Counted from the stretch's first letter, positions 11,556 through 41,618 are shown. The stretch: DNA of 50,031 nt from a virus (IMGVR_UViG_3300009703_000029:1-50031), one strand, 5' to 3'. The notes: generated from the sequence alone by a model not told the origin. Made by a program: numbers and translations.

Positions 11556-11619
11556 CTAGTGCCTTGAGCAAGTACTACTGACGAGACTGCTCATCTTTTA
11601 ACAACACAGGAGTAACATC

Positions 11620-11925: not shown

Positions 11926-11953
11926 GTGCCGAATAAGGGCATCTTTGTGTCTT

Positions 11954-12410: not shown

Positions 12411-12460
12411 GGACTCGAAGCTGTGCCCATCTCAGCTCGTCATAGTCCGTCCTTATTTCT

Positions 12461-12508: not shown

Positions 12509-12511
12509 GAG

Positions 12512-12565: not shown

Positions 12566-12568
12566 CTA

Positions 12569-12585
12569 TGGACACGTTGTGTCCA
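12569..12585 (+). promoter_or_regulatory. Family H hairpin, copy 2 (minimal form)
   Basis: TGGACAC, a GTT loop, then GTGTCCA: a perfect 7-bp stem with a 3-nt loop. It lies 37 nt upstream of the next start codon. This minimal geometry matches the 5-7 bp stem and 3-nt loop of phage N4 virion RNA polymerase promoters. The following 35 nt are repeated exactly after copy 3. Confidence 0.6.
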
Positions 12586-12622
12586 ATGTGTGAATTATTT
12601 AACTAAACTAAGGAGTATTATT

Positions 12623-12892
12623 ATGCGTAACATTTCAACCGATCTATTAGCTTCTCAGCTAACAACAGCATTCATCAAGTCTGGCTTGACAACTGCTCAA
12701 TTCGTTCAACACATCATCGATACAAGAGGCGACACAGGAACAGAAGTTCTTGCTGACGCTTCAGTAACAGACACGTATGCCAGTATAGAAGTAGGGATTC
12801 CTGCAGGAGAGTACTGTGATGGCGAGGAGTTCTTCGACATCTACACATTCTACAAGCATCACGATTCCAATCATTGGGGTTGCAAATTGTAG
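12623..12892 (+). CDS. Early hypothetical protein, 89 aa
   Basis: ATG at 12623 is chosen because AAGGAG lies seven bases upstream. An in-frame GTG at 12590 lacks a site. The N-terminus is helical (MRNISTDLLASQLTTAFIKS), the middle acidic, and the end aromatic and His-rich (FFDIYTFYKHHDSNHWG). No family recognised. First gene after the candidate origin. Confidence 0.65.
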   Translation: MRNISTDLLASQLTTAFIKSGLTTAQFVQHIIDTRGDTGTEVLADASVTDTYASIEVGIPAGEYCDGEEFFDIYTFYKHHDSNHWGCKL

Positions 12893-12908
12893 TTTCAGAG
12901 GTATCGTA

Positions 12909-12949
12909 TGGACACGGCACGAGCTAAAGGGCGAGCTCGATTGTGTCCA
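12909..12949 (+). promoter_or_regulatory. Family H hairpin, copy 3 (long nested form)
   Basis: TGGACAC (12909-12915) pairs with GTGTCCA (12943-12949). Nested inside, CGAGCT (12920-12925) pairs with AGCTCG (12934-12939). It is followed by the same 35-nt leader as copy 2 and lies 37 nt before the next start codon. Confidence 0.55.
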
Positions 12950-12986
12950 ATGTGTGAATTATTTAACTAAACTAAGGAGTATTATC

Positions 12987-25932: not shown

Positions 25933-26487
25933 ATGTCTAAAACATATGAATTTAACAATGTAAAAGTAATGTGGGCAAAGCTGGATCCAAATAACCCAGA
26001 GCCCCCATTTATGCAAGATGACGATAAGCCAAAGCCAGATAGCTGGAATCTTATCGCTGTCTTAGATGACAAACAGGCTGATGCTTGGAAGGAGAAGGGA
26101 ATGTACCCTAAGTTCAAGCGTGACCGTGATCACGACTTGGTTCTAGAAGATGGTCTTAAGACTATTAAGCTAAGCAAGACATCAACCTTTGGCTACAAGG
26201 GGCAACCTAAGAAGCCTGTAATTGTTGTTGATACCTATGGAAACCCTTACACGGGTCTACTAGGCAATGGAACTATATGTAACATCCAGTGTTCAGTACA
26301 CGATTGGAAGACTGCTACATCAACTGGCTCAACCGCTAGTCTAGAAGCCGTTCAAATCCTTGAGTTAGTTGAATACACAGCTGATGGTGGAGATGAATTC
26401 GTTCCAACCTTTGACTTCAAGAAGCAAGACAAGGTATCTCTGTCAGAAGTAACAGCAGATCTAGATGACGAAGATGTACCGTTCTAG
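25933..26487 (+). CDS. Single-stranded DNA-binding protein, T7 gp2.5/DUF2815-like, 184 aa
   Basis: ATG after AAAGGAGAATAAAT. Beta-rich domain (KTYEFNNVKVMWAKLDPNNP, then SWNLIAVLDDKQADAWKEKG and SLEAVQILELVEY) ends in an acidic tail, DLDDEDVPF. The acidic tail with terminal Phe is shared with T7 gp2.5 and bacterial SSB and is used to contact replication partners. It is the second SSB-like protein of this phage. Pattern and position near helicase, exonuclease and RusA support a replication/recombination role. Confidence 0.75.
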   Translation: MSKTYEFNNVKVMWAKLDPNNPEPPFMQDDDKPKPDSWNLIAVLDDKQADAWKEKGMYPKFKRDRDHDLVLEDGLKTIKLSKTSTFGYKGQPKKPVIVVDTYGNPYTGLLGNGTICNIQCSVHDWKTATSTGSTASLEAVQILELVEYTADGGDEFVPTFDFKKQDKVSLSEVTADLDDEDVPF

Positions 26488-26488
26488 T

Positions 26489-26510
26489 CTATAGATACAC
26501 AATAGATAAC
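26489..26510 (+). promoter_or_regulatory. Family P promoter candidate, copy 4
   Basis: CTATAGATACACAATAG shares the CTATA and ACACAATAG blocks of the other copies. It begins one base after the stop of the ssDNA-binding gene and points toward the helicase, exonuclease and RusA operon. A pseudoknot candidate lies immediately downstream. Confidence 0.55.
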
Positions 26511-26540
26511 AGTTGAGTAAGTCGACTGTATAAACTGCTC

Positions 26541-26573
26541 CGAAGCTGTTGCACTTCGTACTTACAATGCAAC
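26541..26573 (+). promoter_or_regulatory. H-type pseudoknot candidate in the helicase leader
   Basis: Stem 1 CGAAG/CTTCG (26541-26545, 26554-26558) encloses the loop CTGTTGCA. GTTGCA in that loop (26548-26553) pairs with TGCAAC (26568-26573). The geometry (2-nt loop 1, 6-bp stem 2, no gap between the stems, 9-nt loop 3) is that of a classical H-type pseudoknot. A further stem, ACAGT/ACTGT (26509-26513, 26525-26529), precedes it. Confidence 0.55.
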
Positions 26574-26607
26574 CCTAATTAAACTAAACAAACAATAAGG
26601 AAACAAC

Positions 26608-26679
26608 ATGGAACTATTTCTAATACTATACTTCACAGCCTTTGTCAGTGTGTCTCTGTACAACACATTTAGGAGATGA
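26608..26679 (+). CDS. Membrane micro-protein coupled to the helicase, 23 aa
   Basis: ATG 26608 after AATAAGGAAACAAC. MELFLILYFTAFVSVSLYN is a hydrophobic helix with a basic end. The stop overlaps the helicase start (ATGA), and the helicase ribosome site AGGAG lies inside this frame. It may mainly serve to couple helicase translation. Confidence 0.45.
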   Translation: MELFLILYFTAFVSVSLYNTFRR

Positions 26680-28229
26680 GCTTTGTACTGAGACAATACC
26701 AGAAAGATGTCCTGAACAAACTGGTCAGGTCTCATAAACAGGGAAAGAAGAAAGTAATACTACAAGCAGCTACAGGAGCTGGAAAGACAGTAATGGCAGC
26801 TGCTTTAGTCAAGTACTTCGTTAAGAATGACTTAAATGTACTCTTCTTAGCTCATAGAAGAGAGTTAATAACACAAGCATCAGAGAAGCTAGAAGCCTCT
26901 GATATATCACATGGAATCATAATGGCTAATCATAGAGCCAATGATGTCTATAAAGTACAAATAGCCTCTGTAGATACACTAAGAGCAAGAGCTATCAATG
27001 CTAAGAAAATGAAGCTCCCACCAGCAGATGTCATCTTTATTGATGAATGCCATAGATCCCTTTCAAATACCTACCTAAAGATAATAGACTTATATAAAGA
27101 CAGTCTACTGATAGGGTTAACTGCTACCCCGGTAAGGGGTAACGGAGAAGGTTTGGGAAGTGTTTATGAGCATATGGTGTCAGCTCCAAGCATTAAAGAA
27201 CTAACTAAACTCGGTTCTTTGGTAGATGTCTCGTACTATTCACCAAGTGTTCCAGATCTAAAAGGAATCGGGGTGATAGGAGGAGACTTCAACTCTAAGT
27301 CATTGAGTGATAGAATGGATCAGCCTAAACTTGTAGGAGACATTGTAGCAACATGGAAGCATCTAGCTAAGGGTAAGCAGACATTAGTGTTTGCATCAGG
27401 TGTAAAGCATTCTCAGAATCTAATGGAAACATTCAAGAATAATGGGATCAAAGCAGGTCACCTAGATGGGGATACTGATAATGAAGAAAGAGAACAAATC
27501 CTAAAGGACTTCAACTCTGGAAAGATAACTGTCTTATGTAACTGCATGGTTCTCACAGAGGGCTTCGATGCTCCTTGTGCTGAAGTATGCGTACTAGCAA
27601 GACCAACAAAGTCACTAGGTTTGTATATACAAATGGTGGGAAGAGTACTTAGACCACATGAAAGCAAAGACAAGGCTATGGTAATCGACCATTCTGGCGC
27701 TGTATATATCAATGGGTTTGTTGATGATGAACATCAATGGGACTTAGGGTCTGGCATCTTAAGAAAAAGGGCAGAACGTAAAGAAAGAACAAGGGAAGAG
27801 GCTGTCATTGTTTGTGAAGGTTGCTTCCGTACTTACTCTGGTTCTAATATCTGCCCTACATGTGGTAAGATACATCAAACCAAATCTGAATACGTAGCAT
27901 TCTTAGATTCTCAACTTGGATTAGTTGACAAGAAGACTAGGATAATAGAAGCTAAAGAGAAGTATGCTAAGGATTTCAGAAAGGTCTTCTATGAAGAGCT
28001 AATGGGACTAGGGGAAGCAAGAGGTCATAAGAAAGGATGGTCTGCTTATAAATATAAAGAACGATTTGGGGAATGGCCTAAACATGATAATTGTAGAGCA
28101 AGAATGCCTACAGCCGAAACCAAATCATACGTTAAACATTTACAAATAAAGGAAGTTAAGAGGAAACAAGCCGCAGGGCTTCTTCCATCTAAGTTTCCAA
28201 AGAAGAGTAAACAAGGAACATTAATTTAG
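26676..28229 (+). CDS. DEAH-box superfamily 2 helicase, SSL2/UvsW-like, 517 aa
   Basis: Walker A AATGAGKT with Lys37; motif II DECH (residues 123-126); motif III GLTATPVRGNGEGLG; motif VI QMVGRVLRPHE. The C-terminus has a Cys4 zinc site (CEGCFRTYSGSNICPTCG). This is the COG1061/UvsW type of ATP-dependent DNA/RNA unwinding enzyme, used in phage recombination and fork remodelling. It begins an operon with exonuclease and RusA-like genes. It is not a replicative hexameric helicase. Confidence 0.9.
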   Translation: MSFVLRQYQKDVLNKLVRSHKQGKKKVILQAATGAGKTVMAAALVKYFVKNDLNVLFLAHRRELITQASEKLEASDISHGIIMANHRANDVYKVQIASVDTLRARAINAKKMKLPPADVIFIDECHRSLSNTYLKIIDLYKDSLLIGLTATPVRGNGEGLGSVYEHMVSAPSIKELTKLGSLVDVSYYSPSVPDLKGIGVIGGDFNSKSLSDRMDQPKLVGDIVATWKHLAKGKQTLVFASGVKHSQNLMETFKNNGIKAGHLDGDTDNEEREQILKDFNSGKITVLCNCMVLTEGFDAPCAEVCVLARPTKSLGLYIQMVGRVLRPHESKDKAMVIDHSGAVYINGFVDDEHQWDLGSGILRKRAERKERTREEAVIVCEGCFRTYSGSNICPTCGKIHQTKSEYVAFLDSQLGLVDKKTRIIEAKEKYAKDFRKVFYEELMGLGEARGHKKGWSAYKYKERFGEWPKHDNCRARMPTAETKSYVKHLQIKEVKRKQAAGLLPSKFPKKSKQGTLI

Positions 28230-28245
28230 GTGAGTGCATCATCTC

Positions 28246-28440
28246 TTACTGGAAATAACGACTCCTCAGTAAGGTTATAAAGACGGTACAACTACTGCCG
28301 TATGCACAAGTAGTTACCTTAGAGCTAATGTATGGCTCTTTCTTGTTAGTCTCCTTTGGGGTTTTCATGTTTCCCTTTTCATAGCTAACAAGTAATGTTT
28401 AGAAGGCTTGACCACATCCTTTATCATACATGGTGGTCAC
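28246..28440 (+). promoter_or_regulatory. Structured leader of the tandem-HTH gene, with a second pseudoknot candidate
   Basis: No gene fits 28230-28470. Stems: CTTACTG/CAGTAAG (28246-28252, 28268-28274); AGAGC/GCTCT (28322-28326, 28336-28340), followed by a short U-rich run; CTTGTTAG/CTAACAAG (28343-28350, 28386-28393); TGACCAC/GTGGTCA (28410-28416, 28434-28440). In addition ACGG/CCGT (28284-28287, 28299-28302) encloses AACTACT, which pairs with AGTAGTT (28310-28316). Confidence 0.45.
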
Positions 28441-28470
28441 CAAATTCAATTAAATAAGAGGAGAGACATA

Positions 28471-28884
28471 ATGAAGAAATATCGACTAACTGATGGATCT
28501 TATGTAACTGCAAAAGAAGTTGCAAATAAAATAGGATGTTCGGACGCATTAGCTAGATCTAGATTATCTAGATATATTGACCCTAAGAATGTTTTCATGC
28601 CTAAGAATACAAAATCAAACAAGGCTTCAGAGCCAAAGAAAAAGAAGCTTAAGTATTACTTGTTAAACAATGGAGAAAGTGTAACTGCTATTGATGTAGC
28701 AGATAAGGCAAACATAAGCATAACACAGGCAAGAAAAAGACTTAACAAACATAAAGATCCAGATATAGTATTTCTAAAACAAGAAGCCAAGACAGAAGAC
28801 AACTCATTAAAGATGAGGAATATAAAAACAAGAATGTTTTACGACCCACAAGGTCATTGGAAGTTACTAAACGCAAACACATAA
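28471..28884 (+). CDS. Tandem helix-turn-helix protein, 137 aa
   Basis: Start ATG 28471 is chosen for its GAGGAGAGACATA leader. Two related modules: YRLTDGSYVTAKEVANKIG with ARSRLSRYIDPKNVF, and YYLLNNGESVTAIDVADKAN with ARKRLNKHKDPDIVF. Each looks like a helix-turn-helix followed by the shared tail R-L-x-[RK]-[YH]-x-D-P-x-x-[VI]-F. A basic linker joins them. Likely a DNA-binding regulator or a replication/recombination accessory factor. Confidence 0.65.
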   Translation: MKKYRLTDGSYVTAKEVANKIGCSDALARSRLSRYIDPKNVFMPKNTKSNKASEPKKKKLKYYLLNNGESVTAIDVADKANISITQARKRLNKHKDPDIVFLKQEAKTEDNSLKMRNIKTRMFYDPQGHWKLLNANT

Positions 28885-28913
28885 CTAAACACTAAACAAC
28901 AAAGGAGCAAAAC

Positions 28914-29726
28914 ATGAAGATATACTCAGAAGAACAACTGCCACAAGGTAGTAAAGAATGGCTAAACATTAGAAAACTACACGGAACAGCATCAGAGGTT
29001 GCAGCTGTACTAGAGCTTTCACCTTGGACTCCTAAGACCCCATTACAACTATGGCAGGTTAAGAACGGAGAGCTTCACATTAAACTAAACGAAGCCATGA
29101 AGATCGGAACTGAAACAGAGGACGAAGCTAGAGAGGCATTTGAGAAACTATCAGATAAGAAGTACGAACCAGTCTGTATTACTGAAGAAATTGATGGATT
29201 GCCATTAATGGCTTCCTTGGACGGAATGGAGCGAGGCAAGGGTAACTCTATCTTAGAAATAAAAGTCCCTCTAAACGGATCCTGCTCGCCTCTATGGGCA
29301 AACATGGAGCTTAACGAAGACCTTCCTATTCATTACATTTTACAAATGCAGCAACAGATGTTATTATCTAAACAAAGCCAATGTAACTTCTGGGTGTATG
29401 ATCGAAAGAACAAGGTTGGCTTGAACAGAATTGTAAAACAAGATAAACAAGTTCAACAACAGATCGTAGATGGTTGGGCTGAATATTTCAAAGGGAAACC
29501 TGAAGCTGGGGATAAGGATGTTATTGTGAGGGATGATGATCAGTGGTGCAAATTAGCAATGCTTTGGAAGATGGCTAAGTCTGATGCAGATGAAGCTACC
29601 AGAAAGCAGAAAGAACTACGTCAGAAGCTAATAGATCTATGTGATGGCCGTTCGTACAAAGGAAATCAAGTTCAGGTAACTAAGAATAATCAGACAGGTG
29701 GATGGTCGATTAGGAAGGTTAAGTAA
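28914..29726 (+). CDS. YqaJ/lambda-exonuclease family 5'-3' exonuclease, 270 aa
   Basis: YqaJ-type viral recombinase. The N-terminus is SKEWLNIRKLHGTASEVAAV, then LSPWTPKTPLQLW. The catalytic acidic residues are Asp103 (ASLDGME), Glu115 and Lys117 (EIKVP), followed by HYILQMQQQMLL. It resects double-stranded DNA to allow single-strand annealing. No separate annealing protein (Red-beta or Erf) is apparent; the 184-aa ssDNA-binding protein may fill that role. ATG follows AAGGAGC. Confidence 0.9.
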   Translation: MKIYSEEQLPQGSKEWLNIRKLHGTASEVAAVLELSPWTPKTPLQLWQVKNGELHIKLNEAMKIGTETEDEAREAFEKLSDKKYEPVCITEEIDGLPLMASLDGMERGKGNSILEIKVPLNGSCSPLWANMELNEDLPIHYILQMQQQMLLSKQSQCNFWVYDRKNKVGLNRIVKQDKQVQQQIVDGWAEYFKGKPEAGDKDVIVRDDDQWCKLAMLWKMAKSDADEATRKQKELRQKLIDLCDGRSYKGNQVQVTKNNQTGGWSIRKVK

Positions 29727-30139
29727 TGAAATATAACGCCATATTAGAATACCCAACTTTTACTCGAAGAGGTAAGGTTGTAAAACTATCACAGAATATA
29801 TTCAAGAAGATGCATTGGGGATCTCAAGCCAAGTGTAAGAAAGACTATGCTGAACTAGTAGAGGGCTTCACTGAATCCCTTCCTAGGTTCAACTGGATTA
29901 GACCAGAGTACACTTTGTTCTTTAAAGGTAACAGGCCTAAGGATTTAGATAACTACTGGTTTCCAGTACACAAATTCCTAATGGATGCTATCGTGGAGGC
30001 TGACAAACTAGAAGATGACAACTTTAACTTCGTAAGAGGTTTCGTTGTTGACTTTGGTGAATGTGGTAAAGACGTAGAAGATCATGTTGTTGTTGAACTC
30101 ATTGGAGAAATCAACAATGACGAAGACAATAAAGACTGA
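29726..30139 (+). CDS. RusA-like Holliday-junction resolvase, 137 aa
   Basis: TAATG overlap with the exonuclease gene. The D-x-D-N motif (RPKDLDNYWFPVHKFLMDA, Asp73/Asp75) and the later acidic ADKLEDDNF are the RusA metal-binding signature. It cuts branched DNA such as Holliday junctions before packaging. Length matches the family (about 120-140 aa). Operon context with exonuclease and helicase supports the call. Confidence 0.85.
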   Translation: MKYNAILEYPTFTRRGKVVKLSQNIFKKMHWGSQAKCKKDYAELVEGFTESLPRFNWIRPEYTLFFKGNRPKDLDNYWFPVHKFLMDAIVEADKLEDDNFNFVRGFVVDFGECGKDVEDHVVVELIGEINNDEDNKD

Positions 30140-30290
30140 CGAAGCGATAGAGAAATGCTATCGTGTAGTAATGCATACATGTGACCCAGAAACAACGGAT
30201 CACTGTGCAGCATGGTTAGAAACCTTAAGGATACTAAAGACCTTGGGGTTTAACCGTGTTGCTTTCGAAGAAGGAATAACAAAGGAGTAA
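30117..30290 (+). CDS. Hypothetical protein, 57 aa
   Basis: ATG 30117 follows GGAGAAATCAACA inside the end of the resolvase gene. Contains CYRVVMHTCDPETTDHCAA with three Cys and two His residues, possibly a metal site, then a helix WLETLRILKTLGF. No family recognised. Confidence 0.58.
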   Translation: MTKTIKTDEAIEKCYRVVMHTCDPETTDHCAAWLETLRILKTLGFNRVAFEEGITKE

Positions 30291-30294
30291 TAAT

Positions 30295-30483
30295 ATGATT
30301 GAGATAATCTTAGGATTAGTAGTATTCGCCCTTGGTGGTGGATACATAACTTGGCAACACGGGCAGCGTAAGTACGAGGAAGGTGTGATAATGACTTTAA
30401 TAGACCATCACACAGGCAAGCTTACTTACAAAGCAGAAGGATCAGACGGTAAGTATATGTTAGAGATATTTAGGGAGGAGTAA
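30295..30483 (+). CDS. Small membrane protein, 62 aa
   Basis: ATG after AAGGAGTAATAAT. N-terminal membrane helix IILGLVVFALGGGYITW, then a cytosolic tail. Single-pass topology. No family recognised. Confidence 0.6.
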   Translation: MIEIILGLVVFALGGGYITWQHGQRKYEEGVIMTLIDHHTGKLTYKAEGSDGKYMLEIFREE

Positions 30484-30656
30484 TGCATACATATGAGCAA
30501 TGTAAGATTAAGATTGAGGGAATTAAGAACCTACTAAGCCGTATTAAAGAACATTCAAACAAGACAAATTCAGATGCTATTCATATGACTGAATCTGCAA
30601 TTGTAATGTGTGACGAACTACTAAGGGAAGACGTTGCAAACAAAAAGAGGAACTAA
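30483..30656 (+). CDS. Hypothetical protein, 57 aa
   Basis: TAATG overlap at 30483; GGGAGGAG lies upstream. Helical and basic (KIKIEGIKNLLSRIKEH, then MTESAIVMCDELLRE). No family recognised. Confidence 0.55.
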   Translation: MHTYEQCKIKIEGIKNLLSRIKEHSNKTNSDAIHMTESAIVMCDELLREDVANKKRN

Positions 30657-30657
30657 T

Positions 30658-30777
30658 ATGATGAAGAGGGCATTGATGCTGTGGGATTGGTTGTGTGTAT
30701 ATTGCCTGTTTATACGTATTAAGTTAAAGATTAACAAATGGGGAGGGAAAGTTGGTGACCAATTCTGGGACAGCTGA
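30658..30777 (+). CDS. Small basic protein, 39 aa
   Basis: ATG 30658 after AGAGGAACTAAT. Hydrophobic aromatic segment LMLWDWLCVYCLFIRIKLK, then a basic end. Possible membrane-associated peptide. Moderately supported. Confidence 0.42.
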   Translation: MMKRALMLWDWLCVYCLFIRIKLKINKWGGKVGDQFWDS

Positions 30778-30800
30778 CCTTATCTAACACAGGAGAACGA

Positions 30801-31142
30801 ATGAACAAAGAAAGTAAAGAAGAAGCTTGCTCAATATTAGCAACGGAATATGCAGAAATAGCTAAAGCATCTGGCTTCGATCACAAAGATGTGTTCAATA
30901 AATATATGAACAGATGTATGACAAGAGATGAGGAGATTGTTGCCCAACAAGCAATGAGAGAAGCTTATCAAGTAATCAAAAAGAATCCAGAAATATCTTG
31001 GGTACAAGAATGGTATAAAGAAAGAGAAGCCAGAAAGAAGGTAGAAGTTGAGTATAAGAAAGTAGTAGCTAAAGTTAAAAAGAAAGAAACCAACATAGAT
31101 TACTTAACTAGTTACGCAGTTGATGGAATGGGGTTCTTGTGA
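30801..31142 (+). CDS. Hypothetical protein, 113 aa
   Basis: ATG after CAGGAGAACGA. Charged helical protein (ESKEEACSILATEYAEIAKA, then Lys/Glu-rich WYKEREARKKVEVEYKKVV). No family recognised. Ends overlapping a possible GTG start of the next gene. Confidence 0.62.
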   Translation: MNKESKEEACSILATEYAEIAKASGFDHKDVFNKYMNRCMTRDEEIVAQQAMREAYQVIKKNPEISWVQEWYKEREARKKVEVEYKKVVAKVKKKETNIDYLTSYAVDGMGFL

Positions 31143-31201
31143 CCTTAGATGAATACTGCGACAAGCTGTATGATTATAATGAGCCTATAAAGGAGAAGAA
31201 G

Positions 31202-31393
31202 ATGAGAGTATGTAAAGCAACATTCACAATTGTGGATGATGGAACCGATAAGTTAAGTAGAACAGAGGTAATTGAGATGGTGTTTGATATTGAAGACGAT
31301 AGCAATATGATCGATTCGATGCTAGATTATTTATCTGATGACGAAGAAGAAGATAAGAAAGCTGATAAGCCTTCTATAATCACAAACCACTAA
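31202..31393 (+). CDS. Acidic hypothetical protein, 63 aa
   Basis: ATG 31202 is preferred for its AAAGGAGAAGAAG site. An in-frame GTG at 31139, overlapping the previous stop (GTGA), would add 21 residues. The C-terminal half is very acidic (DIEDDSNMIDSMLDYLSDDE). No family recognised. Confidence 0.55.
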   Translation: MRVCKATFTIVDDGTDKLSRTEVIEMVFDIEDDSNMIDSMLDYLSDDEEEDKKADKPSIITNH

Positions 31394-31728
31394 TGGAAGA
31401 CCTATCTGATTATGGTTGGATAGATAATAAAGCCGACAAAGCAAGGAGAGATATGAAAGATTACAACGCAATGAGCCAACATGGCATGAAAGATATAGAG
31501 TTTATCGAAGAGTTTGGTTTAGACCCAAGCCTAGAAGGAACTCCTGCTATTAACGATGCTATGTTAGATGTAGTAGGATCATTAAATGTTAAAGCTAGAA
31601 AGGAAGAGCTTATGATGGAAGGAATAAATTCAGAGCAAGCTCAGAAAGAAGCATTCAAGTATGCTAACAACAAGCGCAAAGAGGCAGAAGCCCATCTTAA
31701 GGCAGTAACAAAACAAAGGGGTTACTAA
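31393..31728 (+). CDS. Hypothetical protein, 111 aa
   Basis: TAATG overlap with the previous gene. Charged and helical, with EFGLDPSLEGTPAINDAML and a basic C-terminus. No family recognised. Confidence 0.6.
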   Translation: MEDLSDYGWIDNKADKARRDMKDYNAMSQHGMKDIEFIEEFGLDPSLEGTPAINDAMLDVVGSLNVKARKEELMMEGINSEQAQKEAFKYANNKRKEAEAHLKAVTKQRGY

Positions 31729-32048
31729 TGGTATGGATTAGTGATGATTACGCTATCTATAGAGATAGACTGCAATGGATATTAGTTGAAAAACCTAAAG
31801 AAGCTCCGCCTGAGAGATATAAGAAAGAGAAGGTCTTAGGAAGGAAATGGTTCTATCCAAATCTAGCCACTATAAGCAGAGCCATTATCGAATTAGAGGC
31901 TCGTGATGCTCTAGGCAGGCTTGCCCCTAGCGAAGAATTTAAAGACGCTGTAAGGATGCCTCAAGAGGCTTTAATAACACATATCGAAACAGAGTTAGAG
32001 AAGTTCTTAACTAGAATAATTAACGAGACTAAAGTAAACCCGATTTAA
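31728..32048 (+). CDS. Last early-strand gene, hypothetical protein, 106 aa
   Basis: TAATG overlap. Contains DDYAIYRDRLQWILVEKPKE, then GRKWFYPNLATISRAIIE, a pattern seen in small phage accessory proteins of unknown role. It ends just before the convergent terminator. Confidence 0.62.
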   Translation: MVWISDDYAIYRDRLQWILVEKPKEAPPERYKKEKVLGRKWFYPNLATISRAIIELEARDALGRLAPSEEFKDAVRMPQEALITHIETELEKFLTRIINETKVNPI

Positions 32049-32105: not shown

Positions 32106-35100
32106 TTAGGATCTGTTCTTCCATCTAGGAATTGGAAACTGATGAGCTTCCTCATTAGCCATCTTCTTCTGTAAGCTAGCATACTCCTTATTCAATCTTT
32201 CAATAAGTCGTAGAAGGTTTATCCTCAGATCTTCCTTTCCTGTCTTAGGATTGTAAAGCATAACTGTTTGAGAACTTAAATCAAACTCTACACCTTTCTT
32301 CTTAGCCTGCTCCTTCATATGGTTAATGTATCTATTAAGGTTAGAGATCTCAGCATTAACTTCTTTAAAGCTACGATTAAGATGCTTAGCAGCCACTGTA
32401 GCCTGCGTAGTTGTTGTCATAAATCCATCAAAGATTTGAGCGCCAACAAACAACTTGCCTTTGCTCTTTAATTCTTTGAAGATGTTTATTACGCCTCTAA
32501 CTATGTTGTCAGCATCATTACTATGGGTAACAGAAACACCAGCCATCTTAACTGCTTTGTATATCTCTTGCCCTTTCGTATTGAAAGAAGACGCTCTAGG
32601 GTTATGAACACGTTCAATAATATCAACAGCAAATCTCTTGATACCACCTTCTGTGCTCTTCTTGCTTGCCTTGAACATAGTCTTAGCTTTACCAACAAGC
32701 TTACCTAAATGAAGGATGTGCCCAGCAGCAGTCTTAATCTCAGGATTCAAGCCTTGGTCTAAAGCATACTGTGTAACAGCCGCCATAGACTTGCTGTAAG
32801 CCCTAAGGTCAGGGAAGTTGATTTCAATAGACTTGACCATCATCTTTTTAGATAGGTCTCTAAACTTCTCACCATCTTTGTGATTTAATCCTAATTCCTT
32901 AGCCAGTGCTTGGAAGCCTCTATCAGCAATAAGCTTATCAAGTTCAACACCAAAGTCTAGCTGGATAGCATATCCACCTGCACCGTAAACAAAGATCATC
33001 AAAGGCTTCTTAGCTAAGCTTCTATTAGTAACACCAAGGTATTCCCATAGTTTCTTAAACTTAACTCTAGTTGCCTCATCTCCGCCATAATTACTAGCTA
33101 AAGCCTTAAACATCTCATCAGCAAATGTTTGCACCGTGTAGAAGTAAACGTCTTCAGCATCGCCTTCAATCTTAGGTAGAAGACCAGTAAGTCTAGCGAC
33201 AAGTGAATTACCTGATTGAACAGCAGACCATGCAAGTGCATTAGATGTGCCGTCTAACTCTGTTAAGAACCTAGTTTCATAAGGCTTAACATTGGCAGCT
33301 CCATTCTTTTCATAGGCGTTAAACTTAAGAGCCTCTTCAACAACTGTCAAGTACTCCCAATCACCTTCTGCTTCCTTAAGAAGCTTGATAGGGATACCTT
33401 GCTTACCAGACTCAAGATGCTCTCTGAATATCTCAGTCCATCCAACAACAAGTGAATCGAACTTAGCAATAAGCTCTTCAACATACAAAGACCTCTTGTT
33501 CTCATCCTTCTCAAGACCAGCCCTTTGAAGGATTAAAGCTTTGTGCATTCCAACTTCTTCTTTGTTGTTTAGCCTAATCTGATAAGGTCTGCCAGACTCT
33601 AGCATGGCTCTTGCGAACTTGCCAGTCTGATAGTTACCCATATTCTGCATGATGTACATTCTATCGTTACCGATTGAAAAGTCATAATAGAATATTTTGT
33701 CTTCAGTATCTCTAATCCACTTTGTAGTGTTATCAACGTATCTATATCTAGCTGTATCTGAAAAGCTAAGTTCTACTTCATACTTAAAACCAAATCGTTC
33801 ATCGTTCATATCCTCAACTGTATTAAGAGTTGGATGACCATCTGCATTAAGGACAGATGTGAACCTCCAAGGAACTCCAGCGTTATCCCTATAAGAAATA
33901 GAACCGTCTCTCATTTCAATACCAACAAGGCCAATAAAATTAGAATCAATAAGATCTCTAGCTTCAGGATCTGCAAAGGATTCTTCAATCTTATTGAATA
34001 AAGGCGTGTTAGATCCAAAGCCAACATTCTCTAGAATAGTAATAGCATGCTGAGCTTGCTCATAGTTTCCATATGATAAGCCTTTGTCTCTCTTCTTCTT
34101 CTCTTTCTTACTTATCTTTACCTTCGTTCCTTCTTTGTTAAGCCTACGTTCAAACCTGACCTTAACAACAGCATCAGGAATCAACACAGAGGTTATGTCT
34201 TCAAAAGAAGTAGCGAGATCCATTCCAGCTTCAGTTAAAGAGATTGTGTTTAACTTCTTTCCATCTTTATCGATAGTCTTAAGCTCAAACAAAGCAGGCT
34301 GACCAGCTTCAATTAACTTGTCGTTAACATCTAGCATCATCTCTTTATACAATGCGCCAGTTACGCCTCTAGTTACAGCTGTTCCATTCTTAATATTAAA
34401 GGCAGACTCTGCTAAACCACCAACTTGATTGTTGATAGCAACAGTGCCCATCTCTTCCTTCTCTGAGATTTCAGATTCAGGCTTACCATCCTTAATATCA
34501 TTTTGTCTTTGTTGCTCTCTCCATTGCTGCTCTTTAAGAACATGCATGAAAGAATATAAACCAGCATCAGTAAACGCTTGATCTAAACCTTCTCTGGCAG
34601 CCTCTTCTTGCAAAGACAAGAATCGTCTACCATACTCTGCCATACTTCTTGGATCACCAAGAGGAGCATCGCCTTCATTGTTTAATCGGTCATAGAACTC
34701 TTGCTTACCTTGACTACTAAAGTTAAAGTTCACATTATCAGCCGCCTCTTTCATTAATGGAGACAAACTCTTATGGCTAGCAACAGCTTGGTCAAAGGCT
34801 ACACGATTGATTTCACTATTACCTTCACTTACCAAAGCGTAAGCAGCATCTTCATTACCTTCGTCAATTAATCTAGCGAACTCTTCGTACTTGGCTTTCT
34901 CTCTACGAGAAATCTTATCTTCTTCAGATGTGAATGCTTCATACTCTGATCCTTCACCAGTAACCTGAGACACAAACTCATCCTTAGATAAGTTCTCCGC
35001 TCTTTGCTTCTCAATTCTTTCTCGTTGAGCATCAATAATAGGATCGCCTTCTGGTGTAACAATAGGCTCTACTGAGTCAGTAGAGTTTAATGCTGCATCA

Positions 35101-35225
35101 AGATTATCATAAGCAATCTGATCTTCAGTTCTATCATCAACCTGATTGATATCCTCAATCGCTTCTTGACCATCAATAGGCCCTGGTTTGCGCCCCCTAA
35201 GGAGACCACTTGTTAATTTACTCAT
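32106..35225 (-). CDS. Second single-subunit RNA polymerase, candidate virion RNAP, 1039 aa
   Basis: Last gene of the virion operon, directly after the 1345-aa ejection protein. It has diverged T7/N4-type RNA polymerase motifs in order: IGNDRMY (517-524, R522), like the T7 WRGRVY block; motif A LDGTSNALAWSA with Asp658; motif B RSLAKKPLMIFVYG (R735-x3-K739-x7-Y747-G748), exactly the R-x3-K-x7-Y-G pattern of T7 R627/K631/Y639; motif C region VTHSNDADNI (His901) and QIFDGF with Asp933, where the T7 His811 position is Phe. Motif spacing is close to T7. Size is near the N4 mini-vRNAP (1106 aa). The N-terminal 400 residues are acidic and helical, perhaps for packaging or ejection. Virion location is inferred from gene position. 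Confidence 0.78.
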   Translation of the reverse strand: MSKLTSGLLRGRKPGPIDGQEAIEDINQVDDRTEDQIAYDNLDAALNSTDSVEPIVTPEGDPIIDAQRERIEKQRAENLSKDEFVSQVTGEGSEYEAFTSEEDKISRREKAKYEEFARLIDEGNEDAAYALVSEGNSEINRVAFDQAVASHKSLSPLMKEAADNVNFNFSSQGKQEFYDRLNNEGDAPLGDPRSMAEYGRRFLSLQEEAAREGLDQAFTDAGLYSFMHVLKEQQWREQQRQNDIKDGKPESEISEKEEMGTVAINNQVGGLAESAFNIKNGTAVTRGVTGALYKEMMLDVNDKLIEAGQPALFELKTIDKDGKKLNTISLTEAGMDLATSFEDITSVLIPDAVVKVRFERRLNKEGTKVKISKKEKKKRDKGLSYGNYEQAQHAITILENVGFGSNTPLFNKIEESFADPEARDLIDSNFIGLVGIEMRDGSISYRDNAGVPWRFTSVLNADGHPTLNTVEDMNDERFGFKYEVELSFSDTARYRYVDNTTKWIRDTEDKIFYYDFSIGNDRMYIMQNMGNYQTGKFARAMLESGRPYQIRLNNKEEVGMHKALILQRAGLEKDENKRSLYVEELIAKFDSLVVGWTEIFREHLESGKQGIPIKLLKEAEGDWEYLTVVEEALKFNAYEKNGAANVKPYETRFLTELDGTSNALAWSAVQSGNSLVARLTGLLPKIEGDAEDVYFYTVQTFADEMFKALASNYGGDEATRVKFKKLWEYLGVTNRSLAKKPLMIFVYGAGGYAIQLDFGVELDKLIADRGFQALAKELGLNHKDGEKFRDLSKKMMVKSIEINFPDLRAYSKSMAAVTQYALDQGLNPEIKTAAGHILHLGKLVGKAKTMFKASKKSTEGGIKRFAVDIIERVHNPRASSFNTKGQEIYKAVKMAGVSVTHSNDADNIVRGVINIFKELKSKGKLFVGAQIFDGFMTTTTQATVAAKHLNRSFKEVNAEISNLNRYINHMKEQAKKKGVEFDLSSQTVMLYNPKTGKEDLRINLLRLIERLNKEYASLQKKMANEEAHQFPIPRWKNRS

Positions 35226-35237
35226 TTATATTTACCT

Positions 35238-38200
35238 TTATTTGAATAAGTAAGAAGAGCCGAATATCGGTGTAGCCTTCTTAGCATAGTAACCAACTCC
35301 AGACATATCTCCTGCTAACGCATTGTCAAGCACTTTATGTGCCCAACTCAGTGTACCAGTAAACGGACCTAGATCTCCTGCAAGTTGCTCGTAGAACGGC
35401 TCATTTATATCATAGATAGGATGAATCATATCTATAAACCTCTCAGACGTACCGAACAATCCTGATGATAGTATACCTCTCTGAGCATAACCATAGTCTT
35501 CTAACCAAGGATTATGTCCGTCTTCATACTTCCATTCGTCTTTAAGCATTTGCCCAAGGAATGAGAACATGAGCATTGTCATTGCTGCTGCATACGCATG
35601 GTATCTAGCAGATGGGTTGCCATGTCTAAACCTTCTCCAAGCTCTTGGAAGAATGTGAGATGTGAATGTAGATAAGAAACCTTGATATTGACCCATCATT
35701 CTGAAATGAGAGTCTGAATACCAGATAGGTCTATCAGCTGAGTTAGGATTAGCCAAGATGTTATCAACATATGAATGTCTTGCGATCTGCATCGTGTCAT
35801 ACAACTTAGCGAAAGGAGCATCTTTATTGCCCTCGCCTAACTCTTGATTGATAATCCTCTGCAATGCAGCATAGTATCTCTCAGGATCGTGAGTAGGGTC
35901 AAAACCTTCTTTCTTAAGTTGAGTTTGTAGGCTATTAACAAACTGATGATATTCCTTAGCAGTAGCAATTGGATCTATATTAAGCTCTCTTAATCTTTCA
36001 TAAGCGTCAGCTCCGATATTCTTACCTGATTCATAGTGTTGGAAGACTAACATTAAGTCTCTAACAATTGAATCCTGTGCCATAGATAAGGCCGTGATAC
36101 GGGTAGCGTCAGTAAAAGGCTTTAATAGGTTGAACGTAAAGAAAGCCTGAAGAACTGACTCTTTAAATCTACTCATGTGATCAATTTGTTGACCAATATC
36201 CACGTGACCTAATACGCCTGTAGCATGTGAGCCATAGAACGAATAGAAATCCAATTCAACGGCAGACAACTCTTCAGGAGTTAACCCAGAGCCCTTAGTC
36301 ATATATCTCATAGAGTCCTTAGTAGATCTCTTGAAATGCTGGAACAACTGTTTAGCAGCCTGCATCAATATTTGCTTAGCTTCCTTGTCATGCATTGCAT
36401 TTAACACAAGCAATCCAATCTCAGGAAGAGAGGCTAACAGCGATGTATCAAGCTGAGTAACAGAACCAAAGAACAATAGGTTTGATTGAAGCTCAAGAAG
36501 TTTCTTGTTCTCCATCTCTTTATACCTACCTAAAGAAGCATCTCTATAGTCAGTAATAACCTTAGCAATCATAGGATCCCATTTGTCGCCCATTCCTTCT
36601 TTAATGAAATGAAGGATTCTATCTATTCCTTTACCATCCTTGCCAGCAACCTGAACCTCTACGCCATAGTCAATCATTGAAGCAATGTTATGACTAAGAA
36701 CCTTAAACATATTCTTCTCAAGAAACTTGTCTCTCATAACTTGAGATGCATTTAGATGCATTCTAGTCTTCCTTAATGTATCAGGAAGTCCCATACGTTT
36801 AAACTGTTCATCAGTCATACTACCTAGAGAGAATGTCTCTCCGCCTTCAACAACAGCCTTATAGAGCTTATGAGCATCTTCACGAGATAGCTTAACCTCT
36901 ATAGTCTTTCCTGTCTTGGGATCAATATATGACCAACCGTCAACTAAAGTCTGAACAAACAATTCCTTATTCTTCCTAACTTCACTTGGGGCTAGAACAG
37001 CTGCAGACTCAACGTAACCTTTACGTCTATCTATCTTCTTACCAGTTAATATTTCATTGAAGCTAGCATTCATTTCTGCAACAGCTTCTAAGCCTGCAGC
37101 AGCCTTCTCATATGCATCAATCTTACCTTCTTGCTTTAATTGATTTGTAACAGGATTAACTGTAGTAGCTCCATGAGGAACTACAGCTTCTTTAGCTCTA
37201 GTTCTCTCTGCCATAAACTCTTTAAGAGTCTTAATAGCAGCATCTGTATTACTTCCTGTAGCTCTAAGCTTAGCTTCAGATAAGAAGGTAGCGAACACAT
37301 TCTCAAGTTGCCTGTTAATATGTCCTGCTAGTCGTTGCTTCTTCTTTACCTTAGTCTCACCAGGCATAAATGATTTGTTGCTAGGCGCTTCTATGGTCAT
37401 TGCAATAGCAATAGCTTTTCTAACTGAAGGAGGTAGAGATTCATCTTCAACCCATTTCTGGAGATACTTCGATCCTCCCTTCATAAAGAACTTGCCAGGG
37501 AAGTCTTTAATTGTCTTCCACCAACCTTTGTTGACTGTCTTATCAGTAGACTCTGCTTTGTCGTATTCCCCTTTGATTACATTAGAAGAATCACCATCTT
37601 TGATTATGTCTTGAAACTCATCAGACTCCATAAGAGTCTTAAGTTGGTCATAAGCATCGCCACCATGCCAATAGTTCTTGTTGACATCATCAGCTGAAGC
37701 TGAATAGTCTCGTTGCATTTGCTTAAGTCTGCCATAGTCTGAGATAGTTGTACTAACTCCTGACATAGCTCCACCAAGCAATGCGCCACCAGCTGCAGAG
37801 TTGATTAGAACCCTACGGTATTCATCAGCATCAAACTCAGCATGCTCACCACCAAAGTGTGCAGTAAGATAGCCAATTGATTCTTGAGCCATCTCTGTGC
37901 CACCTTCAAACATTGCGCCTTTACCAAAGTTCTTACCGAATGACTTAGCAATCAAGCCTTTCTTGACTAAGATGTCTATCGTTTCTTCTACTTGGTTAAG
38001 GAGATCTATCTGTGCCTTACCTAGATTGTTCTTAATATCTAATGTAGCGGCATCAATGGTTTTACCTGTGTTCTTAGCATGCTGCTTAATAACCTGATCC
38101 ATTCCATCTTTAGTTAATACATAAGACGGCTTCATGATCCCTCTTAAACCTAAGCGGTCTAATAAAGACATAGCAAGACCAGCTGTCATTGCATAGCCAG

Positions 38201-39275
38201 CATTCTTAGAATCCTTGTCTCCGCCCATGCGATGATATGTATCACCAGCATAGACTAGCCAAGGAATAGATGTACCGACTGCGGCTCCTAATAAAGGGCC
38301 TGCTGGGCCTATAAAGGGAGTGGCGGCAGCTCCAATTAAAGAGCCTGCACCATAGGAAGCTACCAAACCAAGAATATACGGTAAGCCCATACCTGCCAAG
38401 CCAGCAATATAGTTGCCAGCAGAAGACAAGTCGTTGATATTAGTAACATCATCTACATATGAAGGTAACTCTCTTAGTTTGGTTTCATATATGTCAGCGT
38501 TAATCTTACCAGACAGATAAAGCTCTTCATTGTCAAGAGCATCACCAAGCATAGAACGTCCGCCTTGGATGCCTTGCTTAATCCCCATCCAACTACCTTC
38601 GAAGGCAGCAGAGAAAGGATTGTCTGCACGATTCATAAAGTCTCTGTCTGAATGTAAGAACATAGCCTCACGGTCAACAAAGATAGACTCAGGGCCTCTA
38701 TATCCAGCTTCTTGAGCATAAGCGGCTTCATTTAAAGCAACCGCCTTCTCACCAACTAAAGTATCTCTCCAATGTTGTTGAACTCTAGTTCTAGCTTGCG
38801 CCCAAGGATCGTTAGGATCAGCGTCTTGTTGAACGCCTCTAGCCATTCTGCCAGCTTCAGCTAATGCAACTTGTTTATCAGAAGAGAACTTATCTAAAGG
38901 AATAATACCTTCATAATAAGCCTTATCTCCAAGAGTCAATCCATCTTCGTTCTGAAGAGGAGCTAGCAACCTATCATAGATATCTTCTTCTGAGCTATCT
39001 GGGATATGGTTAAAGCCTTCAGAGTTTGCTAATGCAGCAATCTCATCTGCGATAATCTCTCCATCCCAGTCGCCATACTTTAGCGTTCCATCTTCTAGGA
39101 AGTGAAGGGTCTCTGGAGTAGCCATGTCGCTAAAACGAATCGGCTCTCCAGAAGCGTTACTAGTTGGCTCAATAGTGTCTCCATCTACAAACCAGTATTC
39201 TCCCTTGTTGGTTTGAATAGATCTCCTAACATGTGTTGGGATGTCATTCTCACCTTCTAGATAATCTGTAAGCAT
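35238..39275 (-). CDS. Large ejection/internal virion protein with N-terminal nuclease-like domain, 1345 aa
   Basis: ATG 39275 after TAGGAG. Residues 27-55 (YWFVDGDTIEP, then GEPIRFSDMATPE) match the staphylococcal-nuclease motif V-x-D-G-D-T...R...T-P-E: Asp33, Arg47 and Glu55 align with SNase Asp21, Arg35 and Glu43, but the Asp40 equivalent is Ala52. A hydrophobic stretch (YILGLVASYGAGSLIGAAAT, then PFIGPAGPLLGAAVG) could form membrane helices, and the C-terminal two thirds are helical. Size and position resemble T7 gp16, which enters the cell envelope during DNA ejection. Confidence 0.78.
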   Translation of the reverse strand: MLTDYLEGENDIPTHVRRSIQTNKGEYWFVDGDTIEPTSNASGEPIRFSDMATPETLHFLEDGTLKYGDWDGEIIADEIAALANSEGFNHIPDSSEEDIYDRLLAPLQNEDGLTLGDKAYYEGIIPLDKFSSDKQVALAEAGRMARGVQQDADPNDPWAQARTRVQQHWRDTLVGEKAVALNEAAYAQEAGYRGPESIFVDREAMFLHSDRDFMNRADNPFSAAFEGSWMGIKQGIQGGRSMLGDALDNEELYLSGKINADIYETKLRELPSYVDDVTNINDLSSAGNYIAGLAGMGLPYILGLVASYGAGSLIGAAATPFIGPAGPLLGAAVGTSIPWLVYAGDTYHRMGGDKDSKNAGYAMTAGLAMSLLDRLGLRGIMKPSYVLTKDGMDQVIKQHAKNTGKTIDAATLDIKNNLGKAQIDLLNQVEETIDILVKKGLIAKSFGKNFGKGAMFEGGTEMAQESIGYLTAHFGGEHAEFDADEYRRVLINSAAGGALLGGAMSGVSTTISDYGRLKQMQRDYSASADDVNKNYWHGGDAYDQLKTLMESDEFQDIIKDGDSSNVIKGEYDKAESTDKTVNKGWWKTIKDFPGKFFMKGGSKYLQKWVEDESLPPSVRKAIAIAMTIEAPSNKSFMPGETKVKKKQRLAGHINRQLENVFATFLSEAKLRATGSNTDAAIKTLKEFMAERTRAKEAVVPHGATTVNPVTNQLKQEGKIDAYEKAAAGLEAVAEMNASFNEILTGKKIDRRKGYVESAAVLAPSEVRKNKELFVQTLVDGWSYIDPKTGKTIEVKLSREDAHKLYKAVVEGGETFSLGSMTDEQFKRMGLPDTLRKTRMHLNASQVMRDKFLEKNMFKVLSHNIASMIDYGVEVQVAGKDGKGIDRILHFIKEGMGDKWDPMIAKVITDYRDASLGRYKEMENKKLLELQSNLLFFGSVTQLDTSLLASLPEIGLLVLNAMHDKEAKQILMQAAKQLFQHFKRSTKDSMRYMTKGSGLTPEELSAVELDFYSFYGSHATGVLGHVDIGQQIDHMSRFKESVLQAFFTFNLLKPFTDATRITALSMAQDSIVRDLMLVFQHYESGKNIGADAYERLRELNIDPIATAKEYHQFVNSLQTQLKKEGFDPTHDPERYYAALQRIINQELGEGNKDAPFAKLYDTMQIARHSYVDNILANPNSADRPIWYSDSHFRMMGQYQGFLSTFTSHILPRAWRRFRHGNPSARYHAYAAAMTMLMFSFLGQMLKDEWKYEDGHNPWLEDYGYAQRGILSSGLFGTSERFIDMIHPIYDINEPFYEQLAGDLGPFTGTLSWAHKVLDNALAGDMSGVGYYAKKATPIFGSSYLFK

Positions 39276-39290: not shown

Positions 39291-41618
39291 TTATTTCAAT
39301 TGTCCTACTTGTGAATTAGCATAATCAAGGAATGTCATATCGTCCCTGTCATCCTTACTAAGCTTTCTGAACCCTTTAACTAGGGCTTTAAATACTTCAT
39401 CTGCATTCTGGTAGTTCTCTGAACCACTAACAACAGCATCAACTGATGCTCTTAGAGTTAGCAAACCTTCGGCATCTAGAGCTCCATTCTTTAACAGCAT
39501 CGGAGCTATGTTTCCATTCTTCTTGCCGTTTGCGCCAAGCTTAGAATGATAGCTTCTAGCTCTAATGAATCCATCAGGAGAAGAAGATAAACTAATATCA
39601 TCATCACCTTGAGCTTGCTGTCTCAACGCTTTCATCCAGTCCCTCATTCCAGCATCGAAGATTCTTTTGTAAGACTTAGCCGCCGTGTTGGAAGGAACCA
39701 TTAACTCATTCTCTGAGATACCAGCACGTTGAGCAAAGCTAGATAGAGAGGCTCTGTAAGAACCAGCGATGTCAGGAACCTTCTTGTTAAGCTTCTCTTT
39801 CATCTTCTTATCCATACTTCTGAAGAACTCTTCTTGAAACTTAGTTGAAGCAGAGTTGATTTGCTTAGTTGTAAACTTAAGCATATCCTTCTTAGCTGTA
39901 GTTAATTTACCTGTAGCCTCTATTCCTTTAAGTGCCACATCTTTCTGGAACTTACGGTCTTCTTTGGCAATCTCAGCATCAACTTTTTCTTGTCTTGCAA
40001 TGTCTTCACCAACAACACCAAACCCAGAGGTAACAGATGCGCCAAATGATTCTCCTGCTGCAAGCCCTACGAGAGTTCCAACAATAGCTTTGAACAGTTG
40101 AGGTCTCCATTCTTTGAGTTGTCCAGATGAATCAACAAATCTCTTAAGCTCGGCTTGAGGGTCTGCACCTGCATTAATTCTATCTTGGAATGTAGTTACT
40201 ACCTCTTTCGCTACTTCGCTTTTGTTGACTTCTTCATGGTCTCTAGAAACGATTATCTCTTCTTTAACTATCGGATCTTTCTCTATACCGATATCTCCTC
40301 TGTCTTCAATAATCACTGGGTCTGGTTGCTCCATATCCCAATTTTGTTCCATCATCTCTTGAGTATCACTTGCTGCGTCTAGTTCATCTCCAAATATCTT
40401 AGATTCATTCCAACGCTTTTGTCTCGCGTCCATCATTTGGTTGAAGTCACCACCTCGATTCATATACCAATCTTGTTCCATCATCTCTTGAGTATCACTT
40501 GCTGCGTCTAACTGCTGGTCAGCTTCTACTGCAGCGTCTCTTTCTGCATCGGTCATTGGGCCTTTGCTTTGGCCAAGCCAATCAGGTATATTGTTAAGGC
40601 TGTTCTGTTCTGCGTCCCATTGATTTTCAAATGCACTTTGTGAAGCATCTGCTTTATTGAAAGCTTCTTCGGCAGCAGCGGCATCCTGCGCTTCTTCAGT
40701 TGTAGAGAAATAACCTTGTTTCTTAAATAGATTAGCTTCTTCATCTCCTGCAACAGTTCGTGTAAAACCACTTGGATGGTACATGGTGTAAGGGGTAGTG
40801 TCTCTACCTCCCCATCCTACATCATCAAAGAAGCTATTATCTGCATTACCCGAAACTTCATCGCCATAGTAGTTACCAGCTAATGAATCGTTACCTGGGA
40901 TAGGTCCTTCATAGTAATCATCGCTTGGTCCCATACCATCTAAGTTATTAAGCTTATTGGCATATCTATCTGCAGCGGTATTAATATTTCTGCCGTCCCA
41001 TGACTGGTCTTGAATAGGATTGCCCATTGCATCTGTATCAGAATTACGTTCAAAGAAACTAGTGTATGGCATATCTGGACGAGCATCATACTCATTCCAA
41101 TGATCATCAAAGTTGGTAGTTCCTGAAGCTATATCTTCTACAGTATAACCATCATTAGAGTCCCAAGCAGCAGAGCCTGTAATAGGATCGTTCATAGTAG
41201 TATTAGGAACGACATAGCCATTCTTTTCATACATAGCCACTTCCTCTGGAGAGTAAGCCTTAACAGTTACTCCACTAGGATGTGTCATTGTTACTGTATT
41301 ACTACCAAAGTTAGGTTCGATACCAAACTCGTTTTGATCAAAGATGGCAGAGTCTCCCACTAAAGCAACTTCATCACCGTAATAGTTACCAGCTAACGAA
41401 TCATTGCCTGGGATAGGAGCTATGTCTTCTTTAATAGAGCCCCACATAGCTTTATCTCTTTTCTCCCATTCAGAAAGCTCGTTGTTCTCACCTCTCCACT
41501 TAGGGTTGTTTGTCTTATTCTCAACAGTGGTGGTCTTCTTCGTACCATCAGAATTCTCTTCAATGGTAGTCTGTTTAGTTACATCACTATTTGGATCTTC
41601 AACTTTATTAAAAGCCAT
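39291..41618 (-). CDS. Repeat-containing internal virion protein, 775 aa
   Basis: The N-terminal half holds repeated modules. IPGNDSLAGNYYGDEV occurs twice, HPSG followed by an E-E-x-x-x-[FY]-x-K-x-G-Y segment occurs twice, and DAASDTQEMMEQ occurs twice as a perfect 37-bp DNA repeat. The C-terminal half is helical with a Lys-rich region and a Gly/Ala stretch (LFKAIVGTLVGLAAGESFGA). Position between the 327-aa and 1345-aa proteins suggests an ejection-complex component comparable to T7 gp15. Acidic and largely disordered at the start. Confidence 0.7.
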   Translation of the reverse strand: MAFNKVEDPNSDVTKQTTIEENSDGTKKTTTVENKTNNPKWRGENNELSEWEKRDKAMWGSIKEDIAPIPGNDSLAGNYYGDEVALVGDSAIFDQNEFGIEPNFGSNTVTMTHPSGVTVKAYSPEEVAMYEKNGYVVPNTTMNDPITGSAAWDSNDGYTVEDIASGTTNFDDHWNEYDARPDMPYTSFFERNSDTDAMGNPIQDQSWDGRNINTAADRYANKLNNLDGMGPSDDYYEGPIPGNDSLAGNYYGDEVSGNADNSFFDDVGWGGRDTTPYTMYHPSGFTRTVAGDEEANLFKKQGYFSTTEEAQDAAAAEEAFNKADASQSAFENQWDAEQNSLNNIPDWLGQSKGPMTDAERDAAVEADQQLDAASDTQEMMEQDWYMNRGGDFNQMMDARQKRWNESKIFGDELDAASDTQEMMEQNWDMEQPDPVIIEDRGDIGIEKDPIVKEEIIVSRDHEEVNKSEVAKEVVTTFQDRINAGADPQAELKRFVDSSGQLKEWRPQLFKAIVGTLVGLAAGESFGASVTSGFGVVGEDIARQEKVDAEIAKEDRKFQKDVALKGIEATGKLTTAKKDMLKFTTKQINSASTKFQEEFFRSMDKKMKEKLNKKVPDIAGSYRASLSSFAQRAGISENELMVPSNTAAKSYKRIFDAGMRDWMKALRQQAQGDDDISLSSSPDGFIRARSYHSKLGANGKKNGNIAPMLLKNGALDAEGLLTLRASVDAVVSGSENYQNADEVFKALVKGFRKLSKDDRDDMTFLDYANSQVGQLK

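Follow-up and report, generated by a model that had tools for sequence, protein, structure and literature searches.

The window analyzed here, a viral contig of 50,031 bases, carries two RNA polymerase genes on opposite strands (Table 1). For the compact one, the minus-strand frame is open from end to end, and the plus strand over the same coordinates is riddled with stop codons. The gene is the last of a late block that begins with the terminase gene, runs through portal, scaffold and capsid genes (PHROG matches) as far as base 1 and, provided that the two ends of the contig are joined, continues from 49667 to 32106; there the polymerase gene meets the plus-strand middle genes head to head. 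Next to it lie two genes for large proteins, of which the 1345-aa product matches PHROG virion structural families and the 775-aa product is conserved in relatives as a neighbor of the polymerase. Upstream of these ejection-type genes, five more late genes (41628-44997) encode products without cysteine and without PHROG matches.

A Pfam RNA_pol (PF00940) scan of the whole contig returned the canonical T7-type RNA polymerase alone, establishing its presence in the same genome as an earlier note on this DNA had stated, and left the compact polymerase unmatched. Motif B of the canonical enzyme is unusual (RKGISKRGTMTKAYDAG), with an aspartate at the position of T7 Gly640; the corresponding letters in the CRP-7 RNA polymerase are AYSAG.

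Table 1. Coordinates, strand and supporting observations for the features discussed in the text (window positions unless a locus is named).
Feature	Position	Strand	Basis or remark
Compact stand-alone virion-type (putative) single-subunit RNA polymerase, 1039 aa, no Cys	32106..35225	-	Motifs, profiles, predicted fold
Motif A codons, TELDGTSNALA, residues 655-665, catalytic D658	33231..33263	-	Computed from ORF
Motif B codons, NRSLAKKPLMIFVYG, residues 734-748; R735, K739, Y747, G748	32982..33026	-	Computed from ORF
Codons around motif C, AQIFDGF, residues 929-935, catalytic D933	32421..32441	-	Computed from ORF
Canonical T7-type RNA polymerase, 809 aa, 11 Cys, second/intracellular RNAP	23278..25707	+	PF00940 E 6.3e-69
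Internal/ejection-type virion protein, 1345 aa, 0 Cys	35238..39275	-	Directly upstream of polymerase gene, same operon; phrog_6958 E 2.6e-17
Putative internal protein, 775 aa, 0 Cys	39291..41618	-	Next upstream gene
Middle genes: Gp2.5-like SSB, helicase, RecE-like exonuclease, RusA-like resolvase	25933..32048	+	Converge on polymerase gene
Terminase large subunit, start of late block	8930..10564	-	Closest isolate CRP-7, 43% identity
Candidate hairpin TGGACAC-GTT-GTGTCCA, 7-bp stem, 3-nt loop	12569..12585	+	Upstream of early gene
Candidate leader element, TGTGTCCAATGTGTGAATT-type, three copies (11319, 12578, 12942)	11319..12960	+	0.03 expected by chance
CRP-7 gp33, QBQ72826, "hypothetical protein", 1235 aa	L005:17859-21566

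Motifs, profile matches and predicted fold

The 1039-aa product is a single-subunit RNA polymerase, predicted to carry out DNA-templated RNA synthesis. Motifs A, B and C occur in T7 order with the two catalytic aspartates and the R-x3-K-x7-YG signature: D658 lies within TELDGTSNALAWSA, R735, K739, Y747 and G748 within NRSLAKKPLMIFVYG, and D933 in VTHSNDAD...QIFDGF. Every motif residue listed in the earlier note, with its numbering, was found in the translated product, and its proposal of a second, core-sized single-subunit RNA polymerase in addition to the canonical T7-type one is borne out by profile matches, by motif invariance in 38 homologues, by the predicted structure and by phylogeny.

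The PHROG_414 profile ("RNA polymerase") aligns with residues 522-975 of the product (E 6.4e-11), and PHROG_2206 ("virion RNA polymerase") with residues 506-755 (E 9.7e-9). Profile-profile comparison using hhalign gave matches to the N4 RNA polymerase domains (E 2e-20) and, as strongly, to the T7-type RNA polymerases (E 5e-21). A sequence search of PDB chains with the product gave no polymerase matches, and its homology is therefore visible solely through profiles and structure. A tblastn search of 50,697 phage records yielded no close isolate homologue and matched RNA polymerases weakly (best E 3e-3 among the matches listed), and a single-sequence scan of IMG/VR with the 1039-aa protein found nothing.

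The palm and fingers fold, whose absence the earlier note had set down as evidence against a polymerase, was examined in an AlphaFold model, which matches single-subunit RNA polymerases. The model, built on 29 homologues, has a pLDDT of 69 (42 with five rows); most of the core (residues 530-680 and 780-1030) reached 80-95, with lower values in parts of the fingers. Foldseek matches of the model to the PDB, among those listed, were exclusively single-subunit RNA polymerases (E 2.6e-18 to 4e-14), including the yeast mitochondrial enzyme (E 2.6e-18), T7 RNA polymerase (E 3.1e-17) and human POLRMT. The TM-scores of these matches were about 0.37-0.55 and mostly 0.4-0.55, so that the fold class is clear and the placement of domains is not. 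Against BFVD, a collection of predicted viral structures, the model matched T7-type RNA polymerases and named virion RNA polymerases, those of Vibrio phage phi50-12 and Roseobacter phage RD-1410W1-01.

A family of compact polymerases in marine phages

Scanning IMG/VR with the neighboring 1345-aa protein led to three loci with full-length polymerase homologues (66% and 30% identity, motifs intact), and additional scans gave a third homologue subgroup. The phage's own T7-type RNA polymerase used as a query returned 79 loci, and a profile built from the four homologues found first detected opposite-strand open frames near the T7-type gene, mostly of 1170-1390 aa. Iterated profile searching brought the family to 38 distinct members, mostly 1000-1400 aa long and 15-66% identical to the window's protein, and a final scan together with searches of whole contigs contributed another, more diverged set of members. 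The equivalents of D658, K739, Y747, G748, D904 and D933 are invariant in 38 of 38 homologues, and that of R735 is arginine in 36 and lysine in two. As identity drops to 15% in the same set, the six invariant positions are constant where most other positions vary.

Other members are recognized more readily by existing profiles. Homologue L004 matches PHROG_414 with an E-value of 4e-26, and L127 scores 41.9 bits with Pfam RNA_pol, for which the cut-off is 22 bits, a value that several other homologues also exceed. The open frame in which L127 (contig G007:30569-33985) lies is 1672 aa long, exceeding the other members and intermediate in size towards the N4 virion RNA polymerase (vRNAP). Scans of bacterial and archaeal genomes for the compact family gave zero matches. 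The compact polymerases form a large protein family of marine phages that was previously unrecognized because its sequences are so diverged. In the literature searched, which took in few subscription journals, no description was found of a free-standing enzyme of this size, spread outside the Schitoviridae and with a single-chain partner.

Three members carry a NADAR (DUF1768)-like insert between motifs B and C (L148 residues 913-1013, L161 residues 968-1069 and L160 residues 968-1075), with Pfam scores under the cut-off and a PHROG_1017 match at E 1e-8. NADAR domains reportedly strip ADP-ribose from guanine, and the insert may be an injected counter-defence.

The compact and the T7-type enzymes go together across these genomes. 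The loci counted were the 67 with a T7-type RNA polymerase gene that also include a family member or else extend 600 bases or more past that gene. A compact family member is present in 59 of them, always on the strand opposite to the T7-type gene and mostly 309-328 bases downstream of it. Three of the eight loci negative in the fetched flank have a family member elsewhere on the contig. Both enzymes were found on 18 of the 21 contigs searched whole, and the three contigs without both (8.9, 19 and 37.6 kb) may be incomplete.

Profound divergence from known RNA polymerases, together with CRP-7-type relatives that have DA for DG in motif A and interchanged R and K in motif B, would suit a polymerase-derived ejection protein that has lost catalysis and serves genome delivery only. 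The catalytic positions are nevertheless kept across the 38 members, with the conservative Arg-to-Lys exception given above, and the gene in the window is under purifying selection relative to its nearest relative (dN 0.25, dS 1.37, 1031 codons), which makes a catalytically dead protein very unlikely.

A proposed virion role in early transcription

No cysteine occurs among the 1039 residues of the compact polymerase, where about nine would be expected (P about 9e-5). Cysteine is also absent from all eight N4-like vRNAPs compared (3240-3644 aa), from N4 gp51 and gp52 and from T7 gp15 and gp16, and in the compact family 36 of the 38 members have none and the other two have one each; T7-type RNA polymerases have 10-14 each. 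Loss of cysteine seems to accompany the unfolding of a protein and its passage through the tail, and we know of no reason for an intracellular polymerase to lose every one. Cysteine is lacking in some of the window's other late products as well, and its depletion goes along with ejection without proving it. The gene position tells a similar story, as N4 gp50 and seven other schitovirus vRNAP genes are likewise the last late gene, convergent with the middle genes. The earlier note had called this a virion gene, and its place at the end of the late operon, its internal-protein-like neighbors and the missing cysteines all agree with that description; it is from these three observations that we infer packaging itself.

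These data are best read as early transcription in the manner of N4, carried out outside the Schitoviridae by an ejected polymerase of core size, and we consider it very probable that the protein is a catalytically competent compact virion RNA polymerase that is packaged, ejected and used to transcribe the early genes before the T7-type enzyme takes over. The polymerase would be produced late, enter the particle along with the large internal proteins of the neighboring genes, and be threaded into the host together with them and with the first DNA. Once inside, it would read the early plus-strand genes ahead of any phage protein synthesis, and the early products would include the canonical T7-type RNA polymerase (23278-25707), which would then be in charge of middle and late transcription. 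We infer packaging, ejection, early promoters and hand-over to the second polymerase by analogy with the N4 scheme, which serves as the model for these steps (PMC4496689, PMC12633501).

It is unlikely, in comparison, that the enzyme is an active RNA polymerase that stays out of the virion, expressed late and retained in the cell for late genes or replication priming while host RNA polymerase reads the early genes. Such a role would draw on the indirect nature of the case for packaging and on the canonical RNA polymerase encoded in the same genome. It sits poorly with a gene that ends the late structural operon and adjoins internal-protein-like genes, with a cysteine content like that of ejected proteins and not like that of intracellular T7-type polymerases, and with motifs that most resemble those of the N4 vRNAP.

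Several elements of the early region are candidates for the signals that an ejected virion polymerase would read. The hairpin at 12569-12585 is of the same kind as the N4 vRNAP promoters, which are short-stem hairpins with 3-nt loops; it is conserved as a hairpin in none of the relatives compared and is for that reason a weak promoter candidate. A search of the early region for an N4-type promoter set conserved among relatives gave none that was clear. The TGTGTCCAATGTGTGAATT-type leader element in Table 1 is a further candidate. The strip at 11240-11300 ahead of the first early gene (GACACCCCCCTTAAT...) appears similar, judged by eye, in divergent relatives, and is a candidate early promoter or packaging site. 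A separate repeat, TATAAGGACACAATAGGAATT, occurs at 12035-12055 and 12464-12484 on the plus strand and at 25736-25756 on the minus strand (two of the three copies are exact and the third has a mismatch; chance alone would give none). It resembles SP6 and T7 promoters, is found again in the relatives L213 and L217, and is perhaps a promoter of the canonical RNA polymerase or a replication element.

Relationship to N4-like, T7-like and other phage systems

In phylogenetic trees, the T7-type RNA polymerases, including that of this phage, form one clade (100/100), with the compact family outside it on long branches. A drifted duplicate of the phage's own T7-type enzyme, which membership of the same superfamily and residence in the same genome might suggest, is extremely improbable in light of this clade and of the N4-like motif letters of the compact polymerase. 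The N4 vRNAPs also form a clade (100/99 and 100/100) that excludes the compact family, which consequently stands apart from the Schitoviridae vRNAP clade and did not arise by recent duplication of the phage's RNA polymerase. The compact family falls into two clades between N4 and T7, with the order relative to T7 not settled (83/79), and because the trees are unrooted they are silent on which form, compact or giant, is older.

A cultured relative may be at hand in Roseobacter phage CRP-7, for which the published description reports one RNA polymerase, ORF30 (PMC6918029). In this genome the T7-type RNA polymerase gp30 is followed by convergent gp33, gp34 and gp35, all three without cysteine, and gp34 is homologous to the 1345-aa protein of the window. 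Comparison of gp33, represented by seven CRP-7-type sequences, with the compact family by hhalign gave an alignment of 410 columns (E 3.1e-6), and none of the 13 control comparisons against the family came below 0.05. CRP-7 gp33 is 17% identical to the window's protein and differs from it in motif A (EADARQSNAG), in motif C (IHDA) and in motif B, where K-x3-R-x7-YGK has the arginine and lysine exchanged, an exchange that is conserved in IMG/VR relatives. From these profile data gp33 is a probable, not proven, remote member of the compact family.

A putative vRNAP of podophage StenR_269 and the internal proteins of the Zobellviridae are also large, cysteine-free, internal-type proteins with a similar genome position, and were proposed as such on their size, helix content and missing cysteines alone (PMC10747016). 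For the Zobellviridae example compared, ICP2 gp06, membership in the compact family is unsupported, as no similarity to the family, to N4 vRNAP or to T7 RNA polymerase could be detected.

A single-subunit polymerase that enters the host along with the DNA has been regarded as distinctive of the N4-like phages (Schitoviridae). Its occurrence in compact form across many marine podoviruses would mean that host-independent early transcription by a single-subunit RNA polymerase is wider than thought, and that early transcription by an ejected polymerase needs neither of the large extra domains of the N4 enzyme. A family of "hypothetical proteins" would also gain a function that can be tested in cultured phage CRP-7, and the compact enzymes would offer natural minimal models for the refolding and the recognition targets of ejected polymerases, with short, cysteine-free RNA polymerases as possible tools. 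Tentatively, and at somewhat less than even chances, we suggest that compact ejected polymerases are the common virion RNA polymerase of marine podoviruses, CRP-7 included, forming one or two lineages that are neither T7-type nor of the Schitoviridae, that the N4 enzyme is an elaborated relative and not the prototype, and that in some members a NADAR domain reaches the cell as part of the polymerase, perhaps to counter ADP-ribosylation defences. If true, the 3500-aa enzyme of N4 acquired its envelope-crossing N-terminus and its autoinhibitory C-terminus. A family of "hypothetical proteins" would also gain a function that can be tested in cultured phage CRP-7, and the compact enzymes would offer natural minimal models for the refolding and the recognition targets of ejected polymerases, with short, cysteine-free RNA polymerases as possible tools.

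With T7 gp1 the compact polymerase shares its fold, and motifs A, B and C follow one another in the same order and at similar distances (Foldseek E 3e-17, hhalign E 5e-21). It differs from gp1-type enzymes in being missed by Pfam RNA_pol, in its N4-like motif letters, in having no cysteine where these have 10-14, in being the product of a late gene, and in falling outside the T7 clade. In its motif letters the enzyme leans to N4. Motif A has the N4-like E-x-D-G, with a glutamate two residues before the aspartate, and compared with the N4 hallmark ExDGxxxG (PMC10654107) ELDGTSNA in the window differs at the last position, whereas EIDGTANG in homologues L004 and L010 matches in full. Motif B reads AKxPLM..YGAG in the window, AKNPL..YGSG in N4 and TKRSVM..YGSK in T7, and motif C is IFDG in the window as in N4, compared with IHDS in T7.

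The N4 gp50-type enzymes are giants of 2842-3820 aa in which N- and C-terminal domains flank the RNA polymerase (PMC10654107, PMC12633501). The window's protein, about one third the length of gp50, is without the 1000-aa N-terminal and 1400-aa C-terminal domains and lacks the long inserts that follow motifs A and B in N4, and its 1039 aa compare with the 1106 aa of N4 mini-vRNAP (the RNA polymerase domain, residues 998-2103). Profiles of the two N4 flanking domains, compared with the polymerase and its two neighbors, gave one weak signal (55 columns, P 0.003), partly Gly/Ala-rich, and the idea that the two upstream proteins are split-off gp50 domains is unsupported. Neither the membrane domain at the N-terminus of the N4 enzyme nor its C-terminal domain has a detectable equivalent here, so ejection may proceed in another way.

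What this phage and N4 have in common is a single-subunit polymerase with ExDG, AKxPL...YG and IFDG in motifs A, B and C, encoded without cysteine by the last late gene converging on the middle genes, and a second, T7-like RNA polymerase in the same genome. N4 pairs its virion enzyme with the T7-like gp15/gp16 (PMC4496689), and the two-polymerase logic is therefore known, so that the arrangement the earlier note did not recognize from described phages has a precedent in that respect. What is new relative to N4 is the compact form of the virion-type enzyme, a partner that is one chain where N4 has gp15/gp16, and the spread of the compact enzyme outside the Schitoviridae.
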